Source: Embleya scabrispora
Lineage (GTDB): Bacteria > Actinomycetota > Actinomycetes > Streptomycetales > Streptomycetaceae
DNA length: 64,000 nucleotides
Reading direction: 5' to 3'
Assembly: GCF_002024165.1 (NCBI RefSeq)
Contig: NZ_MWQN01000001.1
Location: 1,984,001-2,048,000 of the forward strand
The position numbers and the translations under genes are program-made. Positions within the stretch are counted from its first letter, which is position 1, and each line of letters begins with the position of its first letter. Positions 2,642 through 25,017 of the stretch are shown here, piece by piece. The notes beneath the pieces were generated by a model, which was given only the letters and a program-made list of their open reading frames with translations, was not told the DNA's origin and did no database searches.

Positions 2642-4495
2642 ATGGACCGGGGCCTGGTGTTGGTGCTGCGCGAGCTTTCCGAAGCCGACGCGGCGGAAGT
2701 CTTCCCGCGTTTGGCGGGACTGCGCGGGATCGACGCGATGATGCCGAACGAGGTGTGTCTGTCGGACGCGGTGGTGGCCGAGATCGCCCGGATCGGCAGT
2801 GGCGCGGAACTGGTGCGGGCCGCCGCCAACCCTCGATTGACGGCGAGTCAGCTGTGCCGGCTGATCGAGGCCGGGGGCGCCGCGGTGGTGGCCGGGGCCT
2901 TTCCTCCGGACGTCGAGTCGCCGGGGGGTGCGGCGCCGGCGGGTGGGTCTCCGGCCGGTGCGGGCGGCGAGGGCTCGGTGGACGCAGCCTCGCCGGACGA
3001 GGACTCGCCGGACGAGGACTCGACGGACGTGCTCGATCGGGCGCGGGCGGAGCTGCGGCGGCCCGGCACATCCGCCGAGCGGGCCGTCGAGCTGTTGCGT
3101 GCCCACCCGGTCCTCGCGCACACCGCGCGCCAGGCCGGCAGCGTGCGCCTGTTGCACTCGCCCGGCGCGCCGATGACCCGTACCGAGGCCCTGGACCAGG
3201 CCGGATCGGCGTTGCGGGCCGGGGTGTTGGCGCCGCGCGAGATCCTGCTCCGGATGCGCCCGGCCCGGGTCGCGGCCCAGGTGCTCGCGGTGGTCGCGCG
3301 CGAACACGCCTATGTCACCGGTGAGATGGCCGTGCACGAACTGCTGCGGCCCGCGATCGTGGATACCCTGGGGACGAGTTCGGGCGCGTGGGCGCATCTG
3401 GCCCGGGCGCTCGGGCGATTCGCGGGTACGCTGCCCGAGCTGTTCGCCGAGTCGGCGGCGCACACCGGCGAGGCCGCGATCCGGGTGCCGGCCGCCGTAC
3501 GCCCGTCGGTGGGCTTCCTGCTGCGCCGACTGGACGAAGACGAACTCACGTCCCTCATACCGCACTTGGACGATGCGACGGCCGTCGCGCTGCTCCCCGG
3601 TAACGTCCCGCCGCTGACCCACGTCGCCGAGGCGGCGCTGCGGTGCGGCCACCGCGCGCTGTTGGCCGCGTTGGCCGAGCACCAGCATGTGGGACGGCAG
3701 TACGCGACCCGGCTTCGCGACCTCGGCGACGACGGGCTCGACCTGCTCCTGGTGGACAACGACTCGGGGGTCACCGCCGAGCTGCGCCGGGAGATCTACA
3801 CCGGCCGGCGACCCGGGCGACCTCTTGCCCCGATGCATCCGGATCTGCGCACCCGGCTCCTGGAGGCTCCGGCCTACAGCGCCGAGTACGAGGCGATGGC
3901 CCGGTCCGGCGATCCGGCCGTGGTGGACTTCGCGCTGCCGCGCTGCGAGGCCCGCAAGCTGCGGCGCATCGACTGGATCGACGTGGTGCTGAACCTGTGG
4001 GAGCGCGCCGACTCCCGGGTCGCGCACGATGTCTTCACCCGTCACCGCGACCTGTTCCCGGACCGGATCCGGGCCACGGCCGAGGCGGCCCTGACCGCCG
4101 AAGACCCGGCGCCGCTGCGCGAGTTGCGCGCCAAGTGGGACCGGGGCCCACGCGCCGAACCCCCCGTCCCGGATCACCGCCGCCCACCGGGCGAGCGACT
4201 GCGCGACAGCCCCCTCGAACAGTGGCACTCCTGGCTCGTCGCGGCCGCCTCGGACGGCGACGTCGACTGCGAGGAGATCGTCCACCACGCCCGCCCGGTC
4301 CGCTTCGCGCTGGCGGCCCTGGCCTCGATAGACGCCAACCATTGGTCCAAGGCCGCCCCCCGCCCGGCCCTCGCACAACTCGCAAAACGAATAGGCCCCA
4401 ACCCGGAAGCCTGGGTCGTCTTCACCACCCTGACCCCCGACTTCGAGGGCACCCTCACCGAACTCGCCGACGTCTGCGCGGCGGCCGCGGGGTAG
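2642..4495 (+). CDS. unrecognised 617-aa protein
   Basis: The ATG at 2642 follows GAGGGAGGG. I recognise no family. The protein is rich in Leu, Ala and Arg and looks largely alpha-helical, with repeated amphipathic helices of the type seen in HEAT/ARM-like proteins. An acidic low-complexity insert near residues 95-130 contains a PDEDSPDEDS repeat. There is no signal peptide or membrane segment, so it is probably cytosolic. Codon usage is like its neighbours. It ends 10 bp before the convergent DUF397 gene. Homologues probably occur in related actinomycetes, but no function should be inferred from the sequence. Confidence 0.75.
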   Translation: MDRGLVLVLRELSEADAAEVFPRLAGLRGIDAMMPNEVCLSDAVVAEIARIGSGAELVRAAANPRLTASQLCRLIEAGGAAVVAGAFPPDVESPGGAAPAGGSPAGAGGEGSVDAASPDEDSPDEDSTDVLDRARAELRRPGTSAERAVELLRAHPVLAHTARQAGSVRLLHSPGAPMTRTEALDQAGSALRAGVLAPREILLRMRPARVAAQVLAVVAREHAYVTGEMAVHELLRPAIVDTLGTSSGAWAHLARALGRFAGTLPELFAESAAHTGEAAIRVPAAVRPSVGFLLRRLDEDELTSLIPHLDDATAVALLPGNVPPLTHVAEAALRCGHRALLAALAEHQHVGRQYATRLRDLGDDGLDLLLVDNDSGVTAELRREIYTGRRPGRPLAPMHPDLRTRLLEAPAYSAEYEAMARSGDPAVVDFALPRCEARKLRRIDWIDVVLNLWERADSRVAHDVFTRHRDLFPDRIRATAEAALTAEDPAPLRELRAKWDRGPRAEPPVPDHRRPPGERLRDSPLEQWHSWLVAAASDGDVDCEEIVHHARPVRFALAALASIDANHWSKAAPRPALAQLAKRIGPNPEAWVVFTTLTPDFEGTLTELADVCAAAAG

Positions 4496-19865: not shown

Positions 19866-20681
19866 GTGTCCGCCGCCACCGAACTGGACCCCTCGGCGTC
19901 CGTTCTCAAGTACTACGCGACCGAGCTGCGTCGCGAGCGCGAGAAGATCAACATGACCCAACGAGCGATGGCGAAGCGCGCCTGGATGGCCCCATCGCTC
20001 CTCAACAAGATCGAGGCCGCCAAGCGCCTCCCGACCGAAGACCTGTCGAAGCCGGCCGACGAACTCTTCGCAACGGGCGACCGCTTCCAGCGCCTGTGGC
20101 CACTGGTGATCCGGTACGCGTACCCGACCTGGTTCAGGCCGTTCGTCGAATTGGAGGAGGCGGCGACGATCATCAGGTCGTTCGAGGTACAAGTGGTGCC
20201 TGGATTGCTTCAGACGGAGCGCTATGCACGTGCGATTCTGGGGGCAGGGCGCCTGGATCTCAAGGATCTGGACGAGCAGGTCACCGCACGTCTCCAACGC
20301 CAGCGCATCCTCGAAAGCCAGGATCCGCCCGAGTTCCGTGCCGTACTGGATGAGAACGTGCTACGTCGCGTTTGGGGTGAGCGTGACGTGATGCGCGAAC
20401 AGCTCGAACGGCTGCTTGAGTTCGCCGACCAACCACGCTTCGTTATCCAGGTGCTTCCGTATGAATCGGGTGCCCACGCCGGGGTCGGCGGACCGTTCGC
20501 AGCGCTTACGCTGGACGAAGGACCAGACGTGGTCTACGTGGACGGATTTCTGCAAGGGCAGATCCTGGCAACTCCGGCAGACGTGAAGGCGGCTCAGCGC
20601 GTCTACGATCTCCTGGTTGCTGAGGCCCTTTCGCCCACGCGGTCAATCGATCTGATCGCCTCCGCGCTGAAGAGACTGTGA
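19866..20681 (+). CDS. XRE-family regulator with DUF5753 domain
   Basis: A 271-aa regulator with an N-terminal HTH (LRREREKINMTQRAMAKRAW, SLLNKIEAAKRLP) and a DUF5753 domain (VQVVPGLLQTERYARAIL, QRILESQDPPEFRAVLDENV, VQVLPYE-type ending with PFAALTLDEGPDVVYVDG). GTG start. DUF397 follows after 4 bp and a second DUF397 copy 73 bp later. Same family and gene order as the 4700-5530 regulator but clearly diverged, so this is a separate module rather than a recent duplication. Confidence 0.93.
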   Translation: MSAATELDPSASVLKYYATELRREREKINMTQRAMAKRAWMAPSLLNKIEAAKRLPTEDLSKPADELFATGDRFQRLWPLVIRYAYPTWFRPFVELEEAATIIRSFEVQVVPGLLQTERYARAILGAGRLDLKDLDEQVTARLQRQRILESQDPPEFRAVLDENVLRRVWGERDVMREQLERLLEFADQPRFVIQVLPYESGAHAGVGGPFAALTLDEGPDVVYVDGFLQGQILATPADVKAAQRVYDLLVAEALSPTRSIDLIASALKRL

Positions 20682-20685
20682 GCCC

Positions 20686-20886
20686 ATGATCACAAAAGCC
20701 ACCACGCCGCCCTCCCGTTGGCGCAAGAGCAGCTACAGCAGCAACAACGGCGGCAACTGCGTCGAGGTCGCAACCGCCCTCGCCACCATCCCAGTCCGTG
20801 ACAGCAAGACCCCCAACCTCGGCCACATCACCATCACCCCGGCCTCCTGGTCAGCCCTGCTGACCACCCTGCACCACACATCCTGA
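20686..20886 (+). CDS. DUF397 protein, first of two tandem copies
   Basis: A 66-aa DUF397 protein: RWRKSSYSSNNGGNCVEVA, then IPVRDSKTPNLGHITITPAS. It starts 4 bp after the XRE stop. The next gene (20960) is a diverged copy with an almost identical middle, so a tandem duplication within the operon is likely. Confidence 0.93.
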   Translation: MITKATTPPSRWRKSSYSSNNGGNCVEVATALATIPVRDSKTPNLGHITITPASWSALLTTLHHTS

Positions 20887-20959
20887 CCACCCACCGGCGC
20901 TCCGCCGCCCACGTCCGGACGGCGGAGCCCGGTCAGCCGACACAAGGACCCGTGATCCC

Positions 20960-21148
20960 ATGCCCCAGACCACGCCCTCCGGTTGGCGTAAGAGCACCCA
21001 CAGCGGCAACAACGGCGGCGACTGTGTCGAGGTAGCAACACCCCTAGCCACCATCCCAGTTCGCGACGGCAAGACCCCCAATCTCGGCCATCTCAACATC
21101 ACTCAGGCCTCCTGGTCAGCAATGCTGACCATCCTGCGGGCGACCTGA
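20960..21148 (+). CDS. DUF397 protein, second tandem copy
   Basis: A 62-aa DUF397 protein (GWRKSTHSGNNGGDCVEVA, IPVRDGKTPNLGHLNITQAS). It shares the central TPNLGH segment with the preceding copy, and conservation also extends at DNA level (ACCATCCCAGT, AAGACCCCCAA). It ends at the border of the long non-coding repeat region. Confidence 0.92.
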   Translation: MPQTTPSGWRKSTHSGNNGGDCVEVATPLATIPVRDGKTPNLGHLNITQASWSAMLTILRAT

Positions 21149-21776
21149 CCCCACCTCGCAGATCTCCCAAGGGCCCACATTTCCAGGCGACACTGGCACG
21201 TTGTTCCGCGAAAGGGCGCAAGTAGACGCGTAGTTCGAGACAGACGAGTTGGCTCGTCCGGAGGCACTTCCGAGCGGGTCGGCGCGTTTCGAGGGGTGTT
21301 TTCGGGGAGTGGGGTTCGAAACCGAATCGCGGTGGGTGCTTTTCGGCTGCGAGTTTCCGTGACCTGCGGTTGCGCGATCGGTGCGGAAGGTCGAGCGTTG
21401 AGCGCCGGCTTCGTGCACTCCGGCCCCTCAACGCCGCTGTGAAGACCGAAGACTTCCCGGTCGGCGCCGGCATCGCACGCTCCTTCCCTCACAGGGGCCG
21501 CCGAGGAGACCAAAACTGCTCGGCAGGAACCGAAACCGGATCCCGCGGCACCCGAAACGGCGTCCACTCGCGCCGACCTGCGGTTTTCTCCCACCTTGAC
21601 GCTCCGACGCCCCAAACAATCCGGGTTCGTGAAGCTTCGCCACCCACACTCCCACCGCCCACCGAAGCACCCCGACCCACTCGGGAAGACGCCGGCGAAC
21701 GCAACCCGGCTCCGTCCCCCGCTCCCCCGTTGCCAGCGCCTTTCCCGCCAACCAACGCTCCGCGTAGCAGGCCAGG
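21149..21776. other. gene-free region before the repeat block
   Basis: About 630 bp, less GC-rich than its surroundings. Frames stay open on both strands but none has a good start, codon bias or a recognisable product. It contains short related phrases (GGTTCGAAACCGAATCGC and GAACCGAAACCGGATCCC) but no clear structure. It may be decayed sequence. Confidence 0.5.
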
Positions 21777-22080
21777 ATCGCGAGGTAAGCAGAACGCGCA
21801 ACCGCAGTCGCGACGGGAGCAAAGGGCGGGGCCGGAGTCGCAACGCGAGCGAAGCAGGGCACCGGAGTCGTGAGACGAGCAAAGAGCGCAGCCGAGTCGC
21901 AAAGCGAGCGAAGGGTGAGGTTTGAGTCGTGAGGTGAGTGGAGCATGGCACCGAAGGCGTGAGGCGAGCAAAGCACGGCAGCCGGGTCGTGAGGTGGGCG
22001 ACCGGGTGGGCCGGAGTCGTGAGATGAGCGACCGCGTGGGCCGGAGTCGTGAAGTGAGCGGGTCGGGTGGGCCGGGGTCG
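21777..22080. repeat. left array of ~30-bp degenerate tandem repeats
   Basis: About ten units. The phrase GTCG(T/C)GAG recurs at 21807, 21837, 21867, 21896, 21926, 21957 (as GGCGTGAG), 21986, 22016, 22046 and 22077, i.e. every 29-31 bp. A typical unit is GTCGTGAGGTGAGCG followed by a more variable GC-rich half ending CCGGA. The units are too alike over their whole length to be CRISPR spacers. They point towards the inverted repeat at 22077. Confidence 0.85.
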
Positions 22081-22305
22081 TGTCGGCGGCGGCGGCTTTT
22101 TATTGGGCGCTCCGCGCCGGCTCGCGAGGCACCACTTTTTCTCTCCCCCGCTTCGCTCCTCCGAGAAAAAGCGGCCCCTCGCTCGGGGCCGGCTGTCCCT
22201 CCGCTTCGCTCCGGGCCATCCGACCCACAACACCGCGGCTCCGCCGCTCTCCGCGCTGCGCGCGTCGATCACCACCTCGACCAGGGTCGTGGGCGCTGAC
22301 GCGCC
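22077..22305. repeat. left arm of a long imperfect inverted repeat (pairs with 22447-22680)
   Basis: A ~229-bp arm beginning GTCGTGTCGGCGGCGGCGGC and ending GGGCGCTGACGCGCC. It matches the reverse complement of 22447-22680 over nearly its whole length with scattered substitutions. It is packed with short hairpins (GGCGC-TCC-GCGCC, GCGGC-TCC-GCCGC, CGCGC-TG-CGCG) and one larger stem, CTTTTTCTC pairing with GAGAAAAAG around a CCCGCTTCGCTCCTCC loop. Confidence 0.85.
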
Positions 22306-22446
22306 GACGGGATGCGCCGACGACTCGGCTCACCGGGCAAGGCCCACATCGCGACGGTGGCGGGTGAGGCCCGTGTCGCGAGGGTGGTCGCCCCGGGAGT
22401 GGCCCGCGTCGTGCCGCGAGCCTGGCCTCCCCGCCCCTCACCCCAT

Positions 22447-22680
22447 GGCGCGTCAGCGCCCACGACTCGGGCCGCCCACGCGATCGACGCGCGAAGCGCG
22501 GAGAGCGGCGGAGCCGCCGCTTGTTTTTTTAGGCTGGGCGACCCGGAGCGAAGCGGAGGGGCGCACAGCCGCGAGCGGGGTGCCGCTTTTCTGCGGAGGA
22601 GCGAAGCGGGGGAGCAGAAAAGCGGTGCCTCGCGAGCCGGCGCGAAGCGCCCAATAAAAAGCCGCCGCCACCGCCACGAC
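22447..22680. repeat. right arm of the long inverted repeat (pairs with 22077-22305)
   Basis: A ~234-bp arm, reverse complement of the left arm. A 141-bp unpaired centre (22306-22446) separates the arms. Where the left arm has the stem CTTTTTCTC/GAGAAAAAG, this arm, read in the same orientation, has GCTTTTCTGC/GCAGAAAAGC: both strands of the stem changed together. A loop change from TCC to TTC in the GGCGC hairpin is also seen. Confidence 0.85.
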
Positions 22681-23212
22681 CCCGGCGCGCCGACCCGCTC
22701 ACCTCACGACCCCGGCTGCCGTGCTCCGCTCGCCTCACGCCTTCGGTGCCATGCTCCACTCACCTCACGACTCCGGCGCCACGCTCCACCCACCCCACGA
22801 CCCCGCCCTCACCCGTCGCTCACCCCACGACCCCGACTGCCGCGCTCCGCCCGCCTCACGCCTTCGGTGCCATGCTCCACTCACCTCACGACTCCGGCCC
22901 ACCCGGCCCGCTCACCCCACGCCCCCCGGCTACCGTGCTCCACTCACCTCACGACTCCGGCGCCACGCTCCACTCACCCCACGACCCCGGCCCCACCCAT
23001 CGCTCACCCCACGAACCCGGTGCCGTCCCCGCACACTTCACGCCTCCGGCGCCACACTCCACTCACCCCACGACCCCGGCCCCACCCATCGCTCCACCTC
23101 ACGACTCAGGTGCCGTGCCCTGCCCACGTCACGACTCCGCCCCCGCCCCCGCCCCGCCCTCCCCCACCTCGCGACCCCGGCTGCCCCTTCCGCCCGCCCT
23201 GCGATCCTGGCC
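22681..23212. repeat. right array of ~30-bp repeats, opposite orientation
   Basis: About 17 units, reverse complement of the left array units, with CTCACCTCACGACTCCGG-type cores. CACGAC or a variant recurs at steps of 29-33 bp from 22677 to 23132 and less regularly to 23202. The block ends about 90 bp before the VOC gene. Long open frames across it arise only because the repeat contains no stops. Confidence 0.85.
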
Positions 23213-23304
23213 GCCCATACGGTTAGGCTTGGGGAAGCATCGCGTGTCGGTCGCCGGCTGGGTGAGGCATGGAGGTGCCGGGAGATGCCCCCTGGAGGCA
23301 TTCC

Positions 23305-23694
23305 TTGTCTGTCGAGTTGAATCACACCGTCGTCCACGCCCGGGACAACCGGGAGTCCGCCGAGTTCCTCGCGGATCTGTTGGGACTCGAAATCTCCGGC
23401 GAGTGGGGGCCATTCGTCGCGGTCGCACTCGGCAACGGCGTCACGTTGGACTTCGCCACCATCCCCCCGGACAAGATCACCCCTCAGCACTACGCCTTCC
23501 TGGTCTCCGAGCCGGAGTTCGATGCCGCGTACGCGAAGATCAAGGAGCGCGGGATCGAGCACTACGCCGACCCGCGTCAGCAACATCCCGGCACGATCAA
23601 CCACAACGACGGTGGCCAGGGCGTGTACTTCCTCGACCCCGCGGGCCACTACATGGAGTTGATCACCGTGCCGTACGGCGGTTGGCCCACGTAG
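23305..23694 (+). CDS. VOC (glyoxalase/bleomycin-resistance fold) protein
   Basis: A 129-aa protein of the vicinal-oxygen-chelate superfamily: an N-terminal VELNHTVVHARD strand with the first metal His, a central DFATIPPDKITPQHYAFLV, and the C-terminal GVYFLDPAGHYMELIT with the metal Glu. The TTG at 23305 has GGAGG at ideal spacing; an ATG at 23269 would add 12 residues. Metal-dependent dioxygenase, isomerase or drug-binding roles are all possible in this fold. Confidence 0.85.
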   Translation: MSVELNHTVVHARDNRESAEFLADLLGLEISGEWGPFVAVALGNGVTLDFATIPPDKITPQHYAFLVSEPEFDAAYAKIKERGIEHYADPRQQHPGTINHNDGGQGVYFLDPAGHYMELITVPYGGWPT

Positions 23695-23815
23695 GCACGC
23701 CGTCGGGGCAGCCGGCCCGCCGATGGAGCGCGGGATCCGCACCGCATCGACGCGGGGAACCTCGGGCAAGTCTCGCTGGGCGGACGGGTAAAGCGCTTGA
23801 GGTAACCCATCGGGG

Positions 23816-24073
23816 TCAGGCGTGGTGGTTTTGGAGCAGGGCGGCCATCTCTTCGAGTGAGACGGACCCGTCCGTTCCTTCGGCTGCAACCTCGTCTGCC
23901 GACTTGTTGAGCCGGAAGTCCTCGGCCCGCTCGGCCAACAGACGCAGGCGGGGGAACTCGTCGATGTCGAGCACGACAGCTTCGTGCTTGCCACGCCGCG
24001 TAATGATGGTCGGAGTCTCATCGCGTCGAGCGCGGTCGAGGACATCCGCGAGATGGTTGCGAACGTCGGCCAT
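23816..24073 (-). CDS. orphan Phd/YefM-type antitoxin
   Basis: An 85-aa protein matching the Phd/YefM fold: VRNHLADVLDRARRDETPTI, then ITRRGKHEAVVLDIDEF. It begins MADVRNHL, so the usual first beta strand is missing; an in-frame TGA just upstream excludes a longer start. No toxin gene (Doc, YoeB, RelE, PIN) is adjacent: the VOC gene and a TetR gene flank it. It may be a remnant, a transcriptional repressor, or act with a distant toxin. Confidence 0.85.
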   Translation of the reverse strand: MADVRNHLADVLDRARRDETPTIITRRGKHEAVVLDIDEFPRLRLLAERAEDFRLNKSADEVAAEGTDGSVSLEEMAALLQNHHA

Positions 24074-24082
24074 CGCGACAAC

Positions 24083-24862
24083 TCAGATGCGTAGCCGGGC
24101 GGCCAGGCCGTCGAGGAGGGCGTCGAGGCCGGTTTCGAAGCGCCATTGGTGGTCGTCCTTGCGCTGAGCCGAGGCCAGGTAGTTCCGGAAGGCCGGGTAG
24201 TGGCCGGTGCCGATGAGCCAGGTCATCTCCGGGGCCAGCGACGTGCGCAGGGCGTTGGCGTCGTCGGGGGCGCCCTGGGCCGCCATCAGGTGCCGCGTCG
24301 CGATCTCGGCGGCCGTGCGGCCATGGACGTACGATCCGACCGCCTCGACGGCGGCCATCGCCTCGTCGGCGGACAACCCGGCCTCCGCCAGTTCGCGCAG
24401 GCCCCACTCGGCCACCGCCATCCGGTTCGGGGTCGGGGCGACCGCCGCCCGGGCCGACGGCAGCCGTACCAACCACGGGTGGCGCAGCACCAGTTCGCGC
24501 GTGTTCACCGCCGGGTCCCGCAGCGCCGCCCGCCACCCCGCGCCCGGCTGCGGCGCAACCAGTTCGCCGTAGGCGCGGTCGACCATCAGCTCCAACAGGT
24601 CGTCCTTGCCCGACACATACCGATAGGCCGCCATCGGCGCGACGCCCAACTCGGTCGCCAGCCGCCGCATCGTCACCGCCTCGATGCCCTCGGCGTCGGC
24701 GATCCCGACGGCGACCTCGGCGATGCGCTCCGGCGTCAGCACGGCACGGGCGGCCGGGGCCGGGGCGGCCAGTCGCGCCCACAGGGAGGTGCGCGGCGCG
24801 GCGACGTCCGGGGCACCCGCCCCCGCCTCGGCCGGAGGCGACTTCTTCTTCTTGCCGGCCAT
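24083..24862 (-). CDS. TetR-family repressor (TetR_C_1 type)
   Basis: A 259-aa regulator with an unusual Lys-rich start (MAGKKKKSPP) and a ~40-residue linker before the HTH (LTPERIAEVAVGIADAEGIE, then TMRRLATELGVAPMAAYRYV). The C-terminal ligand domain resembles the tetracycline-repressor subclass. It is divergent from a flavin reductase/MFS pump operon, with inverted repeats between them, so it probably represses that operon and itself until a drug-like ligand binds. Confidence 0.92.
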   Translation of the reverse strand: MAGKKKKSPPAEAGAGAPDVAAPRTSLWARLAAPAPAARAVLTPERIAEVAVGIADAEGIEAVTMRRLATELGVAPMAAYRYVSGKDDLLELMVDRAYGELVAPQPGAGWRAALRDPAVNTRELVLRHPWLVRLPSARAAVAPTPNRMAVAEWGLRELAEAGLSADEAMAAVEAVGSYVHGRTAAEIATRHLMAAQGAPDDANALRTSLAPEMTWLIGTGHYPAFRNYLASAQRKDDHQWRFETGLDALLDGLAARLRI

Positions 24863-24910
24863 GGCGACGGCTCCTTCCGGGACGTACGACGCTCTGTTGT
24901 GCGTACGGAT

Positions 24911-24983
24911 GTGTACAACGTATCAGGAGTGGACGGCGTACACCCTTCTGTGTACGTTGTATTTCGATCGATACGACGTACAC
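24911..24983. promoter_or_regulatory. TetR operator sites
   Basis: GTGTACGTTGTAT (24950-24962) and ATACGACGTACAC (24971-24983) form an inverted repeat with an 8-bp spacer and one mismatch. A further half-site-like GTGTACAACGTAT lies at 24911-24923. All are in the 155-bp space between the divergent TetR and reductase genes. Confidence 0.75.
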
Positions 24984-25017
24984 ATCCATGCAAGTGATCG
25001 AGCACCCTGGAGTCCCC

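Follow-up and report, generated by a model that had tools for sequence, protein, structure and literature searches.

Among described systems, two come closest to the repeat reported here. REP, REPIN and BIME repeats (GTAG and CGTC families) are dispersed intergenic palindromes, according to PMC3733652. In streptomycete telomeres, the stems of the palindromes vary between classes and the loops are usually 3-4 nt long, mostly GAA, GGA or GTA (PMC8743542); Tap is described as binding hairpins of the single-stranded telomere 3′ overhang (PMC4513846). The Embleya repeat stands between REP-like repeats and telomere palindromes and is, by the tests made, a member of neither. With REP/REPIN/BIME it has in common dispersed intergenic palindromes that occur both singly and as inverted dimers (PMC3733652); however, those palindromes are 20-40 bp long, whereas its unit measures ~205 bp and forms about six hairpins, comes with no Y1 (RAYT) transposase and has ~30-bp arrays alongside. 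It resembles the telomere palindromes (archetypal, Sg2247 and other classes) in its one-strand row of hairpins, variable stems and GAA/GGA/GTA-type loops (PMC8743542), whereas it is internal, lies at 33 sites and at no end, and has stems and a hairpin order unlike those of the ends compared by eye. The Y1 profile PF01797 gave no hit in the E. scabrispora genome and was positive in 5 of 14 control genomes; in a rough test, a GTAG or CTAC tag lay near either end of 1/52 copies. REP/REPIN of the GTAG type was rejected on the lack of a Y1 transposase and of a 20-40-bp GTAG-tagged palindrome. Phage records held no match to the repeat, and plasmid records at E 1e-5 matched in Embleya sp. NBC_00888 only.

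The window, a stretch of 64,000 nucleotides, corresponds to G000:C1:1984001-2048000 of Embleya scabrispora, whose genome (G000, 10.96 Mb) is assembled in 8 contigs, C1 to C8. At positions 21777-23212 it contains an imperfect inverted repeat with arms of ~240 bp, a centre of 141 bp and arrays of ~30-bp units beyond both arms. The outer arms (22066-22230 and 22527-22691, 165 nt) are 84% complementary and the inner arms (22235-22305 and 22447-22517, 71 nt) 86%, with a gap of exactly 141 nt. The left half-element (22103-22305), whose hairpins are read on the minus strand, was delimited by an alignment of 35 copies and by BLAST to other copies; the right one (22447-22654, plus strand) aligns with other family copies, and the centre between them (22306-22446) has relatives in other doublets and doublet pairs. 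The left array (~21797-22082, minus strand, ~9-10 units) and the right array (~22675-23212, plus strand, ~17 units) each lie on the 3′ side of the folding strand of their half-element; their units run in opposite orientations with a spacing mostly of 29-31 bp, and the self-match at lag 30, taken over 300 bases, reaches z 12.1 on the left and 7.8 on the right relative to mononucleotide-shuffled versions of each stretch. Arm coordinates, unit counts and array orientation thus bear out the first-pass annotation, which had described a mirror-like block with about ten units on the left, about 17 on the right and a period of 29-31 bp. That the 1.4-kb block is itself the unit did not hold: its structure is real, but it is one member of a dispersed family whose true unit is the half-element of ~205 bp. 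The neighbouring genes (23269-23691 and 19866-20678) are ordinary and encode a glyoxalase-family protein and a DUF5753 helix-turn-helix regulator, respectively. Left of the block, a second repeated stretch (21270-21734) is 65.7% identical to L019 4023-4495; within it, 21547-21688 is 86% identical to L018 3015-3148, and 21534-21588 matches L041.

Searching the block against its own genome by BLAST gave at least 118 matches at no fewer than 37 places, the block included, with the best 40 of 312 candidates scored. A pattern spanning hairpin H4 (see below) found 52 copies with up to 2 mismatches, and the reversed-pattern control none. The copy number that the annotation had left to be determined by BLASTN is therefore 52 half-elements at 33 sites, comprising 20 singles (17 on C1), 12 head-to-head doublets like the window block and one 8-copy cluster (L031), with fragments at four further places (L017, L032, L035, L042). 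Half-elements at 32 other sites, fragments at four more, their spread over three contigs and their presence in other Embleya genomes speak against an assembly artefact, and the 33 scattered sites argue against a partition centre, which had been one of the functions proposed. All copies of the H6 apex are internal to C1-C3, with none on C4-C8, and the 20 singles lie 14 on the plus and 6 on the minus strand, a distribution with no clear meaning. The centre common to the 12 doublets and to a head-to-head pair inside the L031 cluster measures 114-150 bp; the 12 other centres are 0.66-0.88 identical to that of the window in the better orientation and 0.55-0.63 in the other, and lie opposite to it in L016, L029 and L039. 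At L031 5500-7710, six tandem half-elements follow one another ~317 bp apart, two types alternating with a period of 635 bp. At L033 (about 3640-3980), a ~79-bp tandem repeat lies 5′ of the half-element and also matches repeats in draft G003 of a relative.

About six hairpins, their stems covarying and their purine loops fixed, can form on one strand of the half-element. On the plus strand of the right half-element these are H1 (22447-22460, GGCGC-GTCA-GCGCC), whose pairs are invariant in 35/35 aligned copies; H2 (22488-22500, CGCGC-GAA-GCGCG, the loop being GAA or GCA in the family) and H3 (22505-22517, GCGGC-GGA-GCCGC), both recognised by alignment and stem-pairing analysis; H4 (22532-22570), a covarying stem around CCC-GGA-GC-GAA-GC-GGA-GGG, and H6 (22577-22631), a covarying stem of 18-20 bp, both from the stem-pairing analysis; and H7 (22639-22651, GGCGC-GAA-GCGCC), which is lost in the G003 copies read. 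The H6 apex, GGAGGAGCGAAGCGGGGGA (22595-22613, plus strand), occurs in G000 at 52 places, 33 forward and 19 reverse, and is exact in all of them even though 2 mismatches were allowed. When 87 distinct halves were anchored on this apex, standard pairs amounted to 97.9% in H6, against 77.4% after arm shuffling (highest 82.1%), and to 85.3% in H4, against 70.8% (highest 73.6%); one H4 position is a purine-purine mismatch in 84/86 copies. In a structural alignment of 35 halves (37 were chosen and two dropped because H1 was not found), 97.6% of the cells of the named structure pair, compared with 91.6% in shuffles, and 109 cells are changed on both sides, compared with 41.1, a count reached in 0/500 shuffles. 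Shifting the partner by 1-3 columns lowers pairing in this alignment to 32-53%. The structure tested on these 35 halves was drawn from one of them, and two of five covariation measures do not exceed the shuffles (pairs changed on both sides, 11 against 10.2; pair types, 25 against 26.8). The relatedness of the copies inflates the covariation counts, and one arm of a hairpin may serve as template for repairing the other (quasi-palindrome correction). The covariation is therefore evidence that the hairpins are maintained, but does not tell the reason. An intrinsic terminator was considered and rejected: a run of at least 5 T follows H3 immediately in 26/52 copies of the genome and is therefore not a constant part of the repeat.

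The loops set one strand, hereafter the GNA strand, apart from its complement. In DNA, C(GNA)G loops and GGA/GGA mismatches are exceptionally stable, and GNA loops can occur in RNA as well. On the GNA strand, the loops of H2, H3, H4 and H6 are GAA, GGA or GCA closed by C-G, as is that of H7 in 75 of 82 copies parsed; the loop of H1 is GTCA. Folding with DNA parameters the 85 of 97 halves that were long enough gave a mean of 3.80 GNA triloops among 6.34 hairpin loops per copy on the GNA strand and 0.00 triloops on the complement, against 0.03 in 291 random window segments and 0.10 in 60 shuffled halves. Of the two strands, GNA has the more stable fold in 72/77 copies with DNA parameters and in 54/77 with RNA parameters.

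The arrays, too, have a side. Downstream of the 52 halves, the self-match has a mean z of 4.2 at lag 30 and 2.8 at lag 60, and the other lags between 8 and 70 stay between -0.8 and 1.0. In 15 of the 20 single G000 copies the 28-32-bp self-match is stronger on the 3′ than on the 5′ side (Wilcoxon p 0.002), and in these copies lags 28-32 stand above the others (p 0.006). Among copies from the relatives, restricted to those with 300 bases on both sides and after 11 duplicate or overlapping loci had been dropped, the 3′ side is stronger in 11/17, a trend (p 0.089), lags 28-32 are not above the others (p 0.24), and G001 taken alone shows no side bias (6/12, p 0.68). The unit sequences change between sites, orthologous ones included (L040/L238, L028/L234), to the point that the units of L028 are 15 bp long and those of L234 29 bp; the window, L018 and L030 have units in common. 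Reading the arrays as coding sequence was rejected, given that the 29-bp periods of some of them would break the frame.

To relate the arrays to replication, the position of dnaA (C1:3.33 Mb) was taken as the only origin, and the L031 cluster and three singles on C2/C3 were left out; this test was devised after the arrays had been seen. Single copies on C1 with the GNA strand on the lagging template have a median z of 6.1 (nine copies), compared with 1.6 for the eight others (p 0.027). In the doublets, the lagging-template arm has the stronger array in 9/12 cases, which is significant by the Wilcoxon test (p 0.042) but not by the sign test (p 0.15), and singles and doublets pooled give p 0.015. 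Arrays with z>5 are not significantly more frequent on lagging-template arms (13/21) than on others (7/20; p 0.12). In G000, the arrays thus favour the lagging-template orientation of the GNA strand, a result that is suggestive and no more.

We consider, with a probability of roughly 0.5, that these copies belong to a selfish-like repeat which folds as single-stranded DNA on the lagging-strand template, and that the arrays are scars of slippage. The GNA strand, when exposed on that template, would fold; a polymerase entering from the array side would stall at H7/H6, slip back and duplicate the stretch just copied, and repeated slippage could build the one-sided arrays. New or doubled copies might arise by a candidate, perhaps single-strand, route, and the copies of a genome seem to be kept alike by recombination between them. 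We take the repeat to be non-autonomous and to use or imitate the hairpins that telomere proteins recognise, rather than to be a regulatory element of the host. If true, this would link three things that are usually separate, namely dispersed palindromic repeats, the hairpin code with which linear chromosomes end, and the origin of tandem repeats where replication is blocked; with arrays at some forty arms, a single chromosome would then offer a natural experiment on folding strand and slippage direction.

The history of the sites bears on this reading. Strong matches were found in 4/4 genomes of the genus among 61 searched, the other 57 giving none better than E 7.5e-5, and related copies occur in E. 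scabrispora, E. hyalina and Embleya sp. NBC_00888. The apex is present 16, 33 and 10 times in drafts G001, G002 and G003, once in a 5.7-Mb Embleya replicon and not at all in a 3.1-Mb one. Both flanks of six G000 sites (L026, L027, L030, L031, L033, L036) were searched in the relatives. In G001 the element is present at L027 and, by one flank at a contig edge, at L031; it is absent from L026, L033 and L036, and L030 coincides with a contig break. In G002 it is present at L027 and, at contig edges, at L026 and L030; it is absent from L031 and L033, and L036 coincides with a break. G003 has it at L026, the apex being absent at the five other sites. Some sites therefore persist in several species, L026 in G000, G002 and G003, and L027 in G000, G001 and G002. 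Comparison of filled and empty L027, L030, L031, L033 and L036 revealed no clean junction or target duplication, the intergenic sequence being too diverged. Conversely, 14 of the 16 places of G001 could be compared with G000, and 12 of the 14 have a counterpart there; L231 and L232 correspond to a single G000 site, and for L261 the match is through one flank only. Such old shared sites would be expected of a conserved function no less than of a parasite, which counts against the selfish reading. Ten orthologous G000/G001 cores are 0.878-0.945 identical, compared with 0.945-0.982 for the best paralogues within the genome, and in 1/10 pairs the orthologue is the closest of 13 G001 copies. That paralogues are closer than orthologues would seem to reflect concerted evolution, or replacement in place. 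L039 is a doublet in G000 and a single copy in G001, and the G000 counterpart of L230 (G001) has ~3.3 kb more beside the copy.

Mosaic presence of this kind is also what a REPIN- or MITE-like non-autonomous transposon would leave, moved in trans by a conventional transposase, with doublets as the mobile form, singles as remnants and no special link to telomeres or replication. Consistent with this somewhat doubtful alternative, the doublets share a centre, found in both orientations, and our own simple gene caller placed no gene within any of the 33 sites. Against it stand the lack of a Y1 transposase, in a search that covered Y1 only, the lack of target duplications at the compared sites, where divergence is high, and the 12/14 G001 places shared with G000. 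Of the three functions suggested in the first-pass annotation, a non-autonomous mobile element nevertheless fits best, given the 52 halves, the turnover of sites between species and the lack of a gene of its own; the expected target duplication and enzyme were not found.

A transcript that folds into the same hairpins, as an untranslated region or a small RNA, would account for the strong covariation, and the folding strand is the gene strand in 6/8 single copies between co-directional genes. The 33 sites divide into 16 between co-directional, 11 between convergent and 5 between divergent genes, with one unassigned, compared with 102, 30 and 31 for background gene pairs in the same loci; the convergent and divergent sites count against a structured RNA element, as do the lack of an Rfam match near the gathering score and the one-sided DNA arrays, which it leaves unexplained. 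The loops, which we take not to be common RNA tetraloops, point the same way, and we consider such an element unlikely. Thus, of the structured transcript first suggested, the structure is real and covarying, and loop style and array sidedness point rather to folded single-stranded DNA. The first-pass annotation saw no likeness to a CRISPR, IS or tRNA array, and this held as far as spacers and Rfam families are concerned: the ~30-bp units run head-to-tail without spacers, and the Rfam scan of 20000-25000 gave only two sub-threshold microRNA matches, with no family over its gathering score.

A bolder possibility is that telomere-like hairpin cassettes have invaded the interior of a linear chromosome, that Tap/Tpg-type proteins recognise them as folded lagging-strand DNA and copy or spread them, and that stalled forks write the 30-bp arrays, each site recording the passage of forks on its 3′ side; we judge this decidedly unlikely. 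Bearing on the main reading as well as on this one, the repeat has several hairpins, 3-4-nt GNA-type loops on one strand and variable stems, as streptomycete telomeres do; its copies are internal to C1-C3, not at the end of a linear replicon capped by a terminal protein. The 3′ strand has 1-5 GNA triloops among 6-8 loops in 7/8 telomere-type ends folded (none in the eighth) and the opposite strand none in 8/8, in a sample that is biased because four ends are contig ends found through the searched motif and a fifth was picked after its end had given a weak match. None of the 16 contig ends of the G000 draft has a GNA-rich 3′ strand, the strain's own telomeres being absent from the assembly. In G000, a match to Tpg (51% identity, E 1.8e-55) lies next to one to Tap that exceeds the curated cut-off, and G003 likewise has both. 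G001 and G002 have no Tap over the cut-off, and Tpg is broken in G001 and not found in G002; both drafts carry copies of the repeat, and the link to telomere proteins is therefore weakened, even allowing for their draft state. The apex style found in Nocardia and others away from telomeres also counts against this link. We regard the resemblance as one of loop style, and a telomere-protein link as a testable idea rather than a finding. The tap-tpg pair lies at G000:C4:628892-631875 (L287, L292), far from a contig end and on a contig without repeat copies; the beginning of tap is matched separately, by another segment in the same frame. In Embleya sp. NBC_00888, the 5.7-Mb linear replicon has the same sequence at its two ends (L196, L197) throughout the 6,000 bases retrieved, starting with palindromes that have GTA/GGA loops but differ in sequence from the Embleya repeat.

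Finally, a site of chromosome architecture or replication control to which a host protein binds (nucleoid, fork barrier or single-strand origin) is very improbable. The invariant apex, the persistence of L026 and L027 across species and the near-fixed ~30-bp period of the arrays agree with it, but copy number is 0-1 in the 3.1- and 5.7-Mb Embleya replicons against 52 in 11 Mb, and array sequences vary between sites.

The 19-nt apex reaches beyond Embleya. Its exact sequence occurs in 10/296 genomes of the class, namely G000, eight of family f28 and one of family f15, and is missing from all 27 genomes sampled in genus g9; sampled f28 genomes hold 0-7 copies. A constant apex on unlike stems in different actinomycete families points to a protein or mechanism that selects a DNA hairpin cap. 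The hairpin repeats of f28 and Flexivirga have the identical apex on other stems; unlike the Embleya repeat, they and those of Nocardia have 1-2 hairpins per copy, and the short stretches examined showed neither doublets nor arrays. In 15 of 16 f28 loci read the stem is of the type CGGGGTCCCCGCGGCGTTGTTC...GAAGAACGTCGTGGGGTG, and in L265-L273, L275-L278, L280-L282 and L284, all from other actinomycete families, the identical apex caps a stem unlike that of Embleya. In the open-access papers searched, the motif GGAGCGAAGCGG turned up in a single, unrelated paper and no description of the Embleya repeat was found. This motif is found near the ends of contigs L112, L120, L151 and L153. With Embleya included, 109 of 220 distinct sites of the motif, among at least 119 stretches, have at least 3 pairs just outside it, against 27.9 expected by arm shuffling among the matches listed. 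In the Nocardia repeats L076, L081 and L085 the sides of the apex are swapped (GGGGGAGCGAAGCGGAGGA or close) and a second hairpin is built around CCGGAGCGAAGCGGAGG. Dactylosporangium repeats (L101 6204-6356, L111, L117) have two GGAGCGAAGCGG hairpins, by eye apparently between a stop and a start codon and once in tandem, and in the cyanobacterium Tychonema (L077, about 200-420) units resembling GGGCGGAGCGAAGCGGAGGGATT form a tandem array.
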